In this document: positions 13,483 to 22,619 of the stretch, piece after piece
Position numbering within the stretch: the stretch's first letter is position 1
Layout: each line of letters begins with the position of its first letter
Assembly (NCBI GenBank): GCA_022842285.1
Contig: JALHPV010000024.1
Span: 482 to 43,600, forward strand
From: Kofleriaceae bacterium
GTDB taxonomy: Bacteria > Myxococcota_A > Polyangia > Haliangiales > Haliangiaceae
Direction of reading: 5' to 3'
Length of the DNA stretch: 43,119 bases
Program-made: the position numbers and the translations under genes
The notes under the pieces: model-generated
Told to the model about the DNA's origin: nothing
The model's input: the letters and a program-made list of their open reading frames with translations, nothing else
Database searches by the model: none

Positions 13483-13690
13483 AATGGGCCAGGGCTATTT
13501 CGAAAATGGGCCAGGGCTATTTCGAAGATGGGCCTGGCCCATTCTTCCGGAACGGGCCTGGCCCATTTCGGAACGGGCCAGGCCCATTTCGAACCCGGTC
13601 GGCTATTCCGGAACGGGCCTGGCCCATTTCGGAATGGGCCAGGGCTATTTCGAAAATGGGCCAGGCCCATTTCGAATCCGGTCGGCTACT
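13483..13690. repeat. Palindromic repeat cluster 1 (REP-like), upstream of the RAYT transposase
   Basis: There are eight cores in about 208 bp, each a perfect or near-perfect palindrome around GGGCCWGGCCC. The best form is AAATGGGCCAGGCCCATTT, nine base pairs around one central base. Five cores are GGGCCWGGCCC and three are the variant GGGCCAGGGCT. Cores are joined by TTCGAA/TTCCGGAA-type linkers, and a second short motif (CCGGTCGGCTA) occurs twice. The same core recurs at 14399-14417, 18343-18432 and 22350-22619. Read as codons the repeats give Gly-Pro-rich peptides (NGPGPF, MGLAHF), but these look like non-coding by-products. Confidence 0.93.
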
Positions 13691-13765
13691 GGTGTCCGAG
13701 TTTCGGACACACGGAGAGGCGCGCCGAACGTCAGAGCTACGCGGTAGTTGGTGGCGAACAACCGC

Positions 13766-13770
13766 GGAGG
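13766..13770 (+). promoter_or_regulatory. Shine-Dalgarno of the RAYT transposase
   Basis: GGAGG lies 5 nt upstream of the GTG at 13776. This decides the start: the open frame continues upstream through the palindromes, but only this codon has a good ribosome binding site and begins the transposase domain. Confidence 0.7.
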
Positions 13771-13775
13771 GTGTT

Positions 13776-14423
13776 GTGCCGAGAGCGCGTCGTGATGTTC
13801 AGCCCGGGGCTGTCTACCACCTGATCTCCAGGTTCGTGGGACGCGAATGGTTCATCAAGACGGAGGCGGACCGCAGCCGGTACCTGGCCTTGCTGGGGCG
13901 AGCGCTGCGGATGTCGGACTGGATCTGCGTGGCGTATGCGATCATGAGCAGCCACATTCATCTGGCGCTCCAGGCCGGTACATGCGCGTTGACCGATTGG
14001 CTTGGCGCGGCGCACCAGCCGTTCGCCGAAGAGATCAACGAACGGTACAAGCGCATTGGGTCCGTCTTCGTGCGGCCGAAGCTCTTGCACGTGCAGACTG
14101 CGGAGGGGTTGGCGAAGGTGGTCGGGTACATCCACGCGAATCCGGTGCGGGCTGATGTCGTGTCACGAGTCGAGGACAGCACGTGGACGAGTCACGCCGC
14201 ATACGCTGACCGACAGACGGGGCCGAAGTGGCTCGATGCACAGCGTGGGCTCGAGCTGATGCAGTTCGCGAATGGGGGCGGGCTGGATGCTTGGGTGGCG
14301 AGGAGGTCGATCACGCGTGAGGATCTCGAGGCGGAGCGCCTGTTGCCGCGGCGAAAGGCAGGACGCCCGAAGGCGGTAGCGGCGCACAAGGGCGACCCAA
14401 AACGGGCCTGGCCCATTCTCGAG
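13776..14423 (+). CDS. REP-associated tyrosine transposase (RAYT, IS200/IS605-like Y1 HUH family), 3' end ill-defined
   Basis: From the GTG at 13776 the protein begins MPRARRDVQPGAVYHLISRF and shows the Y1-transposase pattern: the HUH motif in MSSHIHLAL (His60, His62), and the catalytic Tyr118 in VVGYIHANPVRADVV, whose Y-x-H-x-NPVRA form is typical of RAYTs. These enzymes nick and join single-stranded DNA at palindromic REP hairpins, usually without moving as classic insertion sequences. It sits beside a REP-like cluster upstream and a single core downstream, so these palindromes are its probable substrates. The core at 14399-14417 lies inside the frame (KRAWPI). There is no in-frame stop until 16178, deep inside the convergent gene, so the native C-terminus seems lost; I end the feature where that gene begins. 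Confidence 0.88.
14399..14417. repeat. Single palindromic core at the 3' end of the transposase
   Basis: AAAACGGGCCTGGCCCATT contains the GGGCCTGGCCC palindrome of cluster 1. It lies between the converging transposase and helical-repeat genes, 7 nt before the latter's stop codon. With cluster 1 it brackets the RAYT gene. Confidence 0.85.
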
Positions 14424-17400
14424 TCAGCGCTTCGCGAGGCCGGCTGCGATCTGGGGGCCGAGAGTGGGATCAGCGGCGAGTGCCGCCGACCACAAGCGGG
14501 CGACGTCGAGGTAGGAGGCGGGGTCGAGGTCGAAGGAGCGGAGCGCTTCGGAGGGCGGGAGAGCGGCGAGGTCCTTGAGCAGGGCGACGTAGTCGGAGAT
14601 GCGGGAGATGGTCGAGCCTTCGACGACGGTGCGGTCCGCGAAGGCGATGGGGGCGGGGAGGGGGGTGGGAGCCTGGCCCGAGCGGGTCGTGAAGTCGCCG
14701 AGGAACGCGGCGCGCGGGGTCAGTGTTCCGAGGCGGGGGATGGGGTCGCGCGGGAAGTGGGCGTGCTCGCGAAGTCGGAGAGCGAGGATGCGGCAGAGGA
14801 TGGGGTCACGGTCGACGAGACCGTCGGTGGCGGCAAGCATGGTGGCAGCGGCGGCGCGGGCTCGTGGAGTGACGTCCATGTCGGATTCGGCCGCCGTGCG
14901 GTGAGCGGTGGCAGCGAGGGCGGCCCGGCGGGCCCTCCAGTTGGGATCGCGAAGGGAAGCGGCGGCCTTGGGCAGGTCGCCGGCGGCGAGGGCGAGGAAG
15001 GCGGGGACGTCAGGCGAGGAGGAGATGACGGCCGCGGAGGGGCGCGCTGCGGGCTCGACGGAGGGACGAGCGTCGGTGAGGGGCCCGGTCGGACGCGAGA
15101 GGTGGCGTTCGGCGAGCGCGGCGTCGAAGAGCTCGGTCGAGCGAGCGGAGGTAGCGCGCGTGAAGTGGTGCATCGCGTCGAAGAGCTTGGATTGCTCGGT
15201 GAGGACGAGCGCGAGCTTGCGGTGGTGATCGGGAAGCGGCGCGAGCGCGACGAGCCAGCGGCCGAGTTTCTCGGCCCGCGGCCAGTCTTTGGCGGCGAGG
15301 GCGTCGTCGAAGGCCTTGATGGCGGCCGTGCGGTCGAGGGGGACGGAGACGGAGGCACGTTGCCAGGCGTCGGCGAAGGGCGCGAGGGCAGCATCGAGGT
15401 CCGAATCGTGGGCGGGGAGCGCCGCCGTGAGGAGCGCGAGAGCGGACGGGCCGCGGCCGGCATCCAGGAGGACCCGCGCGCAGTGCATGGCAGGGTGCGC
15501 GCTGCGGCCCTCGGCGAGGTACGCAGCCGTGTGCAAGGCGTCGATCGCGTCGTCAAAATCGATCGCCTTCTTCGTGAGTTGAGCGACGACAGCGTCGGCC
15601 AGCTCGTCGACGCCCGCATGGCCCGTGTGAAGCGCAAGGCGAATGCCCTGCGCGGCCGTGGCAGATTCCCAGCCGTCGAGGCGCTCGCGGTGGAGCCGCG
15701 CGACGGACGTGGCGAGGACGGCCAGCTCCTCGGGGCCGAGAATGCGCGCGGCCACGGTGGCATGGTCGCGCGCGAAGCCTGCCACGTCACCGGCCGAACG
15801 TTCGTCGAGGGCACATGCCCGCTCGACCGCCGCGAGCCACGCCATGCCGATCCAGCGGTCCACCTTGCGCAGGAGCGGCTCGAGAGCGCCGAGGAGCGCT
15901 CTGACATCGCGGTCTCCGAGCCAGTCGCAGTGACGCCGCACGAGCGCGAGGGACTCGGAGGCAACGGTGCGGAGCGCGCCCGCGATCGGCGATGGCGCTG
16001 TCGTCGTTGCCGCGAGGTAGCGCGCGAGCGTCTGCGCGGCCACGTACGCGGCAGCGTGAACCAGACGCGCTGGATCGTCCTCGCTTGCCCCCGTGTACAC
16101 GACCTCGATCCAGCGGTCGACGAAGCGGTCGGCGCGTACGAGGACGTCGCCGTCGCCGACGAGGTCGGACAGCAGTGAATCCACGGCTCGACGCATGCGA
16201 GGTTCCGCCGGGAACGCCGCCAGCGAAGCGGCGTCGGGCTCTATCGCGGCCGTCGTTCCGAGTGCGCGCATGATGATCGAGCTCTTGCTCGCGCCCGGCA
16301 TGAAGTCCGCGATGTCGCGCGCCATGCGTCGTGCGAGGCCATGCGCACCGGCGGCGACGCGCTCCGCGAGGGCCGCTTCCGCAACTTCCAGCGGCATGCA
16401 CGACATGAGGAGGCCGCAGTGCGCTACCTCGACCTGATCGTCGCGACAAGGATCGCCGAGGGAGACGCGCCACAGCTCCTCGAGTCCGCGCCGCCACTCG
16501 CCTGCGGCCATGAGGCACCGGGCCGCGGCGAGACGCGCCACCGAGCCATCGTGACCACGCCCAAGCCCGTGATGCGCCCACGCGAGTGGCACCTCGTGCT
16601 CGCGTCCCAGCAGTACCAGTGCATCGAGGAGCATCGCCACATCGAGGGAATCGCGCGGGTCCCCCTTCGCGAAGCCCTCGACGACGCGCGCCGGATCGCC
16701 TCGGTAGTAGCCCTCGCGGGCATACGCCCATGCGGCGAGCCGCGCATCGCTCTGCCACGTCGAGAGGAGCCTCACGTGTCGCGGCCAGGTCGCCTCGCGC
16801 CCGGCGAGCCGGTTCGCCCGCAACGCGATCGCCTCGTCGAGCCGCCCCACCGCGAGCAACGCGTCAGAGAGCCACAAGTCGATCTGGATCTGATCCGGGT
16901 ACCACGGCAAGACCGGGTCGAGCGGGCAGCCATGCAGTCGCGACGACCGCTGTGCCTGCGCGAGCCACGCTCCAGGCCGCTTCGTCGATGCGTGCCCGGC
17001 CAGCAGCGCCAGATGTGCCCGCTCCGCCCGCGGCGTGCTCGTGATCGCGAACCGATCATGCAACCGCACGCCACGCTCGAGGAGCCGCAGCCCCTCATCC
17101 GGACGACCGTCCTCGCGTAGCATCGATGCCGCACGCTCGATAACGTCGAAGTTCGCCGGTCGGCACAGCGCCGCGATACCTGCCCCGGCGACCGTCTCGA
17201 GCTCCGACGGAACAGCGTCCCCCGGATACTCATCATCGTCGAGCGCGAGCTCGCCATACGCCCGCGCGAAACCGGGAGCGGCCGCTATCACGCGCCGGAG
17301 CAACACGAAATCCCGCCGTCGCTGCAGCTTCGCCACGAAGCGTGCGAACAACGACTGGGGATGCTCGGGGTCAACAGCGAGGATCGTCTCCTTCAGCGAC

Positions 17401-18326
17401 TCACCGAGCGCGAGCTCGAGCAGGCGTAGCGCGGGCACTTTCAGCGTCGCCGGCAGCCGGTTTGCTAGGGCGCGCGACAGCACCGCCGATGGTGCCCGCG
17501 ACAGCGGGATGATGATCGAGTGCTCGGCGGTGTCCTCGACCATTCGCGCCGCCTGCATGTCGATCTGGATGCCTGCCTTCGCCAGCGCAGCCACGGTTCG
17601 ACCTACTCGCCGCACATCCGCCTGATCGACCTCCCCGCGGGGACGCGGCGCATCGGTTCCCCGCTTCGACCGACGCGGCGGCTCGAAGTCGATCCCCGGG
17701 TCCGTGTCGTACTCCGCCGGCATCGTCTCGGCAGGATTGACCGCATTCGCCTCGTCGATGTCGTCACTCGGACCTTCGCCGTCGCTCCCGTTCCACGCCC
17801 GTGCCACCCATGCCCGCGCTTGCTCGCCGAGGGCCGGGGCTATTACGCGCACCACCCCCAGCACCTGTTCGGCCGTTGCTGACTCGAAGCGCCGGGGTAG
17901 CGGTGGCAACCCACGCGCGGCCAGCCACACAGTCAGCACCTGGTTGATCTGATCCCCGACGTTCGCCCCGGCTGCATCGAACGTCTCGCGCTTCCCGTCC
18001 GACGCGATCGAATGCAGCCGGACGTTGCCCGCCCTCAGCAGCGCGAGCTCCAGCCAGATCAGCTCGTCGCGTCGTGTCGTCAGCCAGAATGCATCGTTCG
18101 GCGTCGCCCCCACCGAGGCGTGCTGCGGCGCGAAGTGGCCATCGACGGGCACCAGCGGCGTCGACTCCGGATCGTAAAGGGCCAGGCCCATATGGCGCTG
18201 GCATGCCTCGATGCAAGCCACCCAGAGCAGGACAGCCGCCTCCCGTTCGTGCGCCGCGTCGACGCCCTCGACGGTCAGGTCAGGCTCGAGGATGCCGATG
18301 CGATGAGGTTTGCGCAGCGCCGGCAT
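14424..18326 (-). CDS. Very large helical-repeat (TPR/solenoid-like) protein of unknown function
   Basis: The 1300-residue protein starts MPALRKPHRIGILEPDLTVE, with no signal peptide and no clear membrane span, so it is probably cytoplasmic. It is almost entirely alpha-helical and Ala/Leu/Arg-rich. TPR- or Sel1-like pairs include DEGLRLLERGVRLHDRFAIT, WLSDALLAVGRLDEAIALRA, VAMLLDALVLLGREHEVPLA and AKDWPRAEKLGRWLVALAPL. An acidic/Pro-rich linker (DGEGPSDDIDEANAVNPAET) lies near residue 195. Such solenoids are usually scaffolds; no enzymatic motif is visible. The ATG lies in a 29-bp duplicated segment beside a tandem array, and ancestrally followed the TAG of the HEAT-BRCT gene directly. The 3' third has an extreme C-ending codon bias. 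It converges on the transposase. Confidence 0.8.
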   Translation of the reverse strand: MPALRKPHRIGILEPDLTVEGVDAAHEREAAVLLWVACIEACQRHMGLALYDPESTPLVPVDGHFAPQHASVGATPNDAFWLTTRRDELIWLELALLRAGNVRLHSIASDGKRETFDAAGANVGDQINQVLTVWLAARGLPPLPRRFESATAEQVLGVVRVIAPALGEQARAWVARAWNGSDGEGPSDDIDEANAVNPAETMPAEYDTDPGIDFEPPRRSKRGTDAPRPRGEVDQADVRRVGRTVAALAKAGIQIDMQAARMVEDTAEHSIIIPLSRAPSAVLSRALANRLPATLKVPALRLLELALGESLKETILAVDPEHPQSLFARFVAKLQRRRDFVLLRRVIAAAPGFARAYGELALDDDEYPGDAVPSELETVAGAGIAALCRPANFDVIERAASMLREDGRPDEGLRLLERGVRLHDRFAITSTPRAERAHLALLAGHASTKRPGAWLAQAQRSSRLHGCPLDPVLPWYPDQIQIDLWLSDALLAVGRLDEAIALRANRLAGREATWPRHVRLLSTWQSDARLAAWAYAREGYYRGDPARVVEGFAKGDPRDSLDVAMLLDALVLLGREHEVPLAWAHHGLGRGHDGSVARLAAARCLMAAGEWRRGLEELWRVSLGDPCRDDQVEVAHCGLLMSCMPLEVAEAALAERVAAGAHGLARRMARDIADFMPGASKSSIIMRALGTTAAIEPDAASLAAFPAEPRMRRAVDSLLSDLVGDGDVLVRADRFVDRWIEVVYTGASEDDPARLVHAAAYVAAQTLARYLAATTTAPSPIAGALRTVASESLALVRRHCDWLGDRDVRALLGALEPLLRKVDRWIGMAWLAAVERACALDERSAGDVAGFARDHATVAARILGPEELAVLATSVARLHRERLDGWESATAAQGIRLALHTGHAGVDELADAVVAQLTKKAIDFDDAIDALHTAAYLAEGRSAHPAMHCARVLLDAGRGPSALALLTAALPAHDSDLDAALAPFADAWQRASVSVPLDRTAAIKAFDDALAAKDWPRAEKLGRWLVALAPLPDHHRKLALVLTEQSKLFDAMHHFTRATSARSTELFDAALAERHLSRPTGPLTDARPSVEPAARPSAAVISSSPDVPAFLALAAGDLPKAAASLRDPNWRARRAALAATAHRTAAESDMDVTPRARAAAATMLAATDGLVDRDPILCRILALRLREHAHFPRDPIPRLGTLTPRAAFLGDFTTRSGQAPTPLPAPIAFADRTVVEGSTISRISDYVALLKDLAALPPSEALRSFDLDPASYLDVARLWSAALAADPTLGPQIAAGLAKR

Positions 18327-18342
18327 CTACTCGATGCCCTCC
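18314..18342. repeat. Direct repeat copy A flanking the 18-bp array (carries the start of the helical-repeat gene)
   Basis: This 29-bp segment matches 18446-18474 at 28 of 29 positions; the only difference is G versus A at 18322 and 18454. On the minus strand it reads GAGGGCATCGAG, TAG, ATGC, that is, the end of the HEAT-BRCT frame directly joined to the start of the next gene. In this copy the ATG (18326) is in use. Confidence 0.92.
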
Positions 18343-18432
18343 CCGAAATGGGCCAGGCCCCCGAAATGGGCCAGGCCCCCGAAATGGGCCAGGCCCCCGA
18401 AATGGGCCAGGCCCCCGAAATGGGCCAGGCCC
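18343..18432. repeat. Tandem array, five perfect 18-bp units of the palindromic family (cluster 2)
   Basis: Five exact copies of CCGAAATGGGCCAGGCCC run head to tail, each with the GGGCCAGGCCC palindrome. The following 13 bp (CGCTCGGGTGTGT) separate the array from direct repeat copy B. With no spacers this is a minisatellite-like tandem repeat, not a CRISPR. On the minus strand the units read in frame as LAHFGG, and the 132 bp between the two candidate ATGs is a multiple of three. Confidence 0.95.
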
Positions 18433-18445
18433 CGCTCGGGTGTGT

Positions 18446-18474
18446 GCAGCGCCAGCATCTACTCGATGCCCTCC
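18446..18474. repeat. Direct repeat copy B flanking the 18-bp array (carries the stop of the HEAT-BRCT gene)
   Basis: This is the partner of 18314-18342. In this copy the TAG at 18459-18461 is the working stop of the HEAT-BRCT gene. The ATG beside it would open a 43-codon frame (MLALHTPERGLAHFGG and onward) through the array to the TAG of copy A. Confidence 0.92.
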
Positions 18475-22326: not shown

Positions 22327-22349
22327 GAATCTCGCCTGTGCGCGCCGGC

Positions 22350-22619
22350 GAAATGGGCCCGGGCGAAATGGGCCCGGGCCGTAGGCGAAATGGGCCAGGC
22401 CCATTCTGCGGCGGCGAGGCCCGGGCGAAAAGGGCCAGGGCCGTAGGCGAAATGGGCCAGGCCCCTTCTGCGGCGGCGAGGCCCGAGGCGAAAAGGGCCA
22501 GGCCCATTCTGCGGCGGCGAGGCCCGAGGCGAAAAGGGCCAGGGCCGTAGGCGAAATGGGCCAGGCCCCTTCTGCGGCGGCGAGGCCCGGGCGAAAAGTA
22601 GGCGAAATGGGCCAGGCCC
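22350..22619. repeat. Palindromic repeat cluster 3 with composite units
   Basis: This 270-bp block lies between the converging lysozyme and 98-residue genes. It is made of GCGAAATGGGCCAGGCCC cores, GCGAAAAGGGCCAGG variants and a GC-rich linker TTCTGCGGCGGCGAGGCCCG. The larger unit is about 62 bp and begins with GTAGGCGAAATGGGCC at 22381, 22443, 22547 and 22599. GTAG is the tetranucleotide that classical RAYTs recognise next to REP hairpins. The last core abuts the stop codon of the following minus-strand gene. No gene was found inside. Confidence 0.93.

Follow-up and report, generated by a model that had tools for sequence, protein, structure and literature searches.

How can a tandem repeat array come to lie between two genes that leave no spare room between them? 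The question is raised by a locus in the window, i.e., the whole 43,119-nt stretch of a Kofleriaceae genome that we analysed. There, a gene for a 634-aa protein is followed by a gene for a 1300-aa protein, and the TAG-ATG junction between them occurs twice, as a direct repeat. Read along the minus strand, the locus consists of the upstream gene, copy B (GGAGGGCATCGAGTAGATGC...CC), CGAGC, (GGGGCCTGGCCCATTTCG)x5, GG, copy A and the downstream gene. The coordinates are collected in Table 1.

Table 1. Features discussed in the text; positions are those of the window unless another locus is named.
Feature	Position	Strand	Remarks
Upstream gene, 634 aa	18459..20363	-	weak HEAT_2 match; stops in copy B
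Downstream gene, 1300 aa	14424..18326	-	no Pfam family; starts in copy A
Junction copy A	18307..18342 (29-bp core 18314-18342)	-	start codon and Shine-Dalgarno-like GGAGG of the 1300-aa gene
Junction copy B	18439..18474 (29-bp core 18446-18474)	-	stop codon used by the upstream gene
CGAGC (5 bp)	18434..18438	-	from copy B to the first REP, between duplication and array
Tandem array (REP1)	18341..18433	-	5.2 copies of the 18-bp unit GGGGCCTGGCCCATTTCG, 100% identity
Mini-ORF, 43 codons	18327..18458	-	spans the array, from the copy B ATG to the copy A TAG; MLALHTPERGLAHFG...EGIE, stop
RAYT-like Y1 HUH transposase gene	13776..about 14420 (14423)	+	4 kb from the array; HIH motif and tyrosine conserved
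REP1 cluster, 5' side of transposase	13483..13688	+	exact unit GGGCCTGGCCCATTTCGG at 13554 and 13615
REP1 copy, 3' side of transposase	14404..14414	+	forward; opposite in orientation to the nearest 5' copy (13658, reverse)
Third REP1 cluster of the window	22347..22619	-	possible donor; has the array's exact 18-bp unit at 22448, 22552 and 22603
REP1 sequence, putative transposase substrate			CGAAATGGGCCAGGCCC and its complement
Duplicated junction and insert in a relative	L091:4748-4940		
Long outside duplications at second-family REP loci	L210; L172; L105; L160		62 bp; 33 bp; 27 bp; 14 bp

The duplication is confirmed in coordinates and in sequence. The sequence-only reading had reported two 29-bp copies identical at 28 positions, correctly so, and the match in fact extends to 36 bp (33/36 identical). 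The 20-bp core of the duplication occurs at these two places only in the window (0.01 expected), and the flank similarity at the locus scores 57, against a maximum of 28 in 380 cross-locus pairs. All three differences between the copies lie past the stop codon of copy B, where coding constraint is absent, while the coding part of copy A matches that of relatives (MPALRKPHR and VPALRKPHR, respectively). The CGAGC between copy B and the first repeat is possibly a decayed end of the duplication; a search for a donor by means of this left flank gave no exact match beyond the locus itself. As the same reading had it, both genes are intact despite the duplication: copy B provides the stop of the upstream gene and copy A the start of the downstream gene, and the ATGs of the two copies are 132 bp apart, in frame.

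That reading had also pointed to the site in relatives, and nine same-genus relatives indeed carry a single stop/start junction at the same gene pair (GELEGI/V-TAG-(G)TG), i.e., an empty site. The pair is kept in the genus with the downstream gene directly after the upstream one: the latter ends with GELEGI or GELEGV (variants in two), and the next gene starts at once, also in more distant relatives. The named relatives are metagenome-assembled genomes of Kofleriaceae or Myxococcales, compared at one genome per species, and their upstream gene product is at most about 65% identical to that of the window. Since the relatives have a single junction and copy A agrees with their coding (PALRKPHR), the extra copy and the array, 132 bp in total, were gained in the lineage of the window. 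Intermediate states, with two junctions devoid of REP or with one REP unit, were not seen at this locus in the available relatives.

In a tenth relative (MAG MGR_bin64; L091, which is locus L011 from G004), the same junction is duplicated over 68 bp (67/68 identical), and the 57-bp insert between the copies holds no REP. It does hold a 20-bp reverse-complement copy of the sequence just upstream, which overlaps the beginning of the duplication. In 5000 simulated inserts, a match of 20 bp was never reached, and a search of the L091 genome gave, apart from the locus itself, full identity over 20 bp at that neighbouring place alone. Since its boundaries are different and its two copies almost identical, we take the event to be independent of the one in the window, and recent. 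A direct duplication with an inverted filler of local origin between its copies is the trace of a template-switching replication fork, and the sequence of L091 suggests that its duplication arose by local template switching. Two copies without the array in relatives had been proposed as evidence against the sequence-only reading. L091 comes partly to this, but as an independent event with other boundaries, it separates the duplication from the array, of which it has the former without the latter, rather than disproving that reading.

The array had been described as a series of five perfect 18-bp palindromic repeats. The perfection holds (5.2 identical units, a copy number that may be collapsed in this fragmented draft of 550 contigs, probably metagenome-assembled), but the units are not 18-bp palindromes: each consists of an 11-bp palindrome (GGGCCTGGCCC) with an ATTTCG tail. 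Nor does the array stand alone, as its unit is a dispersed, genome-wide REP repeat, here called REP1. The window has 17 copies of the GGGCCTGGCCC core, where 0.08 are expected; the draft genome (7.9 Mb) has 87, compared to 15 of the reversed control, and with an ATT tail, these genome counts are 46 and 0. A 14-mer present in 46 copies here occurs once across 15 other genomes of the genus, and GGGCCTGGCCCATT is nearly confined to this genome. An alignment of 63 copies gives the consensus GGGCCTGGCCC-ATTTC(G/C), with a variable left side. REP1 forms tandem clusters with cluster-specific spacers in many contigs. We identify the array as a tandem cluster of REPs that belongs to a RAYT/REP system, because its unit is genome-wide, clustered, nearly absent from the other genomes of the genus, and flanks a RAYT-like gene. 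A CRISPR was rejected, since the units are identical and lack unique spacers, and no Rfam match to a known structured RNA was found within the window. A scan of the named genomes, a set to which the window's own genome perhaps does not belong, yielded no paired REP1 copies.

The exact 18-bp unit of the array is also present 4-5 kb away on both sides, in both neighbouring arrays. The three REP1 clusters lie less than 9 kb apart around the transposase gene, and the chance of at least two others being so near is ~7e-4. The spacers in REP1 clusters resemble the left (5') host flank (permutation p = 4e-5; clusters C49, C67, C75, C99 and C119), also when both REP families are pooled; as copies of the 5' host flank, they imply that REP growth here drags neighbouring DNA along.

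Other repeats occur beside REP1 or together with it. An inverted repeat of the GTGTCCGAnnnTCGGACAC type lies at 13693-13712 of the window and also occurs at L049, L059, L062, L024 and L036; it adjoins many REP clusters as well as both transposase genes, and appears to be a separate palindrome or terminator family. Elsewhere in the genome, at least 20 units of 15 bp lie directly beside a REP1 copy (L060:1077-1586, contig C307), probably a coding repeat, and a signal-peptide gene apparently contains two REP1 copies in its N-terminal region (L051, ~1063-1097, contig C47), with a 12-bp direct repeat on each side of the pair.

The HxH motif (HIH/HVH/HLH) and the tyrosine of YIHxNPV are kept in 14/14 aligned transposase sequences. 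The window's transposase matches NF047646 with 41.5 bits (E 1e-10), below the curated cut-off of 80, and scores 21 for Y1_Tnp, where the cut-off is 23; being below both thresholds, it is labelled RAYT-like. The gene may not be intact: its frame (13506-16178, plus strand) has no stop of its own at the expected end, and continues open, in antisense, across the 3' part of the 1300-aa gene. A REP lies inside its last codons. In G010 (L024), a 50% identical transposase gene also has GGGCCTGGCCC beside it. The second RAYT-like gene of the window's own genome (contig C87, L036) is flanked by another palindrome, GGGGTCGGACCCC, which is present in 100 copies here, 64 in G005 and 32 in G014, and is absent from 11 of the 16 genomes; the G005 transposase is likewise flanked by GGGGTCGGACCCC. 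Judging by these sequences, every transposase of the genome is paired with a palindrome family of its own, and the palindrome follows its transposase among genomes. Such pairing is a hallmark of RAYT/REP systems (PMC2817692, PMC6006769). The REP repeat is thus most likely mobilised by the transposase encoded 4 kb away, and an HUH enzyme very probably has a part in the repeat's presence, even if this enzyme did not make the duplication.

REP1 resembles the REP/BIME elements of known RAYT (TnpA-REP) systems (Nunvar 2010, PMC2817692; TnpAREP study, PMC8266576; HuH survey, PMC6006769) in being a short palindrome in tens of copies that are clustered, lie mostly next to gene ends, and flank a single-copy Y1 HUH transposase gene in inverted orientation. 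Unlike canonical REPs, it lacks the conserved GTAG/GTGG at the foot of the hairpin, its conserved side being ATTTCG/CGAAAT, and unlike curated RAYTs, the transposase is below the REP_Tyr_transpos cut-off. Text searches of PMC2817692, PMC8266576 and PMC6006769 found no mention of myxobacteria, the group to which the host belongs. Tandem REP/REPIN clusters are known to reiterate REPs together with adjacent host segments of variable length (Bertels and Rainey 2011, PMC3116915; Di Nocera 2013, PMC3733652). Here, in contrast, the copies of the flank lie outside the five-fold array, at the stop/start, and the array itself contains no flank DNA.

How, then, did the duplication and the array come together? 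We favour, with a probability of about 0.62, a single event of template switching or slippage at a replication fork that duplicated the junction (~36 bp) with a REP copied in between, the array having been expanded later by slippage. In such an event, the fork would leave the tight TAG-ATG junction of the two operon genes, copy a REP from a neighbouring array as a filler template, re-enter upstream of the junction and copy the junction again, so that duplication and REP capture would most likely be one event; the single REP would later grow to five identical units by slippage. We infer that the event was nearly neutral, because the duplicated segment covers the Shine-Dalgarno sequence, the stop and the start, i.e., all that either gene needs. 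Slippage or templated repair had been deemed the likelier source of the duplication by the sequence-only reading, and this view gains its best support from L091; that reading had not recognised the array as a REP cluster that belongs with a RAYT-like HUH transposase.

Like duplications made by template switching or slippage, the locus has a direct repeat that encloses a short insert templated elsewhere, as in L091, where the filler includes an inverted local copy. It differs from those with a filler of adjacent DNA in that its filler is a REP, found in arrays kilobases away. The window locus itself has no inverted filler, and template switching is carried over from L091. Within the array, 0 of 90 bp are changed, compared to 3 of 20 in the unconstrained part of copy B (Fisher p = 0.005), from which it follows that the array is younger than the duplication. 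This comparison is compatible with a duplication that came first and with one that arose together with the REP, and we infer the latter. In the same genome, a 90-bp direct duplication (98% identity) with 129-bp spacing has no REP cluster between its copies (L067:585-803, contig C20), by which spaced local duplications are not restricted to REP loci.

Instead of a switching fork, the transposase might have made the duplication: RAYT-catalysed insertion of a REP would leave a long target duplication of variable length, for instance by an HUH nick and a distant second nick that are filled in. We hold this to be possible, though unlikely, and do not favour it. In three genomes, REP loci of the second family show host DNA, a REP and the same host DNA again in succession (lengths in Table 1), and the DNA copied in L105, L172 and L210 is the 3' end of the neighbouring gene. 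These loci with long flanking duplications fit a by-product of transposition as well, which counts against the fork account. For REP1, on the other hand, the similarity of left to right flanks does not exceed that of shuffled pairs when the window's locus is excluded (p = 0.56), and we have rejected flanking duplication as a general property of this family. For both families together, the excess over background windows is weak (3/119 versus 15/2685, p = 0.04) and disappears when overlapping background windows are merged (p = 0.7), so that this nominal enrichment is not robust enough to make it a general property either. A constant, characteristic duplication length was not found: most REP loci have no duplication, and the others have 14 to 62 bp. 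Moreover, larger target duplications are not among the products of known IS200/IS605 enzymes (PMC2817692), and in L091 this very junction was duplicated without a REP. The flank match at L185 was discounted, as it contains another palindrome repeat. In L210, L172 and L105, the copies of the gene 3' end lie on the far side of the REP2 element, some of them with internal deletions.

More generally, RAYT-driven insertion of REPs might as a rule involve a replicative intermediate in which some 10-150 bp of the target are copied again, but this appears doubtful to us. If true, such a replicative pathway would leave duplications that are long, vary in length and do no damage to the end of the adjacent gene, and the locus described here would join L210, L172 and L105 as snapshots of an otherwise unknown pathway.

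Just as doubtful is the succession of two unrelated events, an ordinary tandem duplication of the junction into or between whose copies a REP was inserted later. L091 demonstrates a duplicated junction free of REP, and an array younger than the duplication is what this order predicts; a late, homogenising expansion of one original REP would explain the age gap equally well, however, and a bare duplication was not present among the relatives compared, all of them distant from this species.

That the array is a coding repeat, the mini-ORF with its GLAHFG repeats being a functional leader or linker peptide that couples translation of the two genes, is highly improbable: the frame is open, its length is a multiple of three, it has its own GGAGG and ATG and ends exactly at the TAG before the downstream ATG, but the 18-bp unit has no stop in any frame, the divisibility of 132 bp by three has a chance of 1/3, and other clusters of the repeat have frame-breaking unit lengths (e.g., 20, 23, 25 and 26). 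The mini-ORF is in frame with both genes, and the stop-to-start spacing is the same at both copies, so translational coupling through the array could occur; the mini-ORF itself is probably incidental, as the other REP1 clusters do not keep the frame. REPs in operons can influence messenger stability, termination and gyrase binding. The RNA fold of the array region is slightly better than that of shuffled sequences (z = -2.0).

We thus return to the single event at a replication fork as the preferred origin of the locus. The spread of REP elements is still called poorly understood (PMC8266576), and the locus offers a polarised example of it: relatives show the empty site, possible donors lie a few kb away, and a REP-free control event occurred at the same junction. 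It suggests a rule, namely, that where genes meet without a spacer, duplication of the stop/start segment on either side of an insertion allows the insertion to persist. Each ingredient was already known; the case illustrates how REPs can land in a junction that has no spare room. With its two RAYT-like/REP pairs, this Kofleriaceae-like genus extends the range of hosts looked at here.
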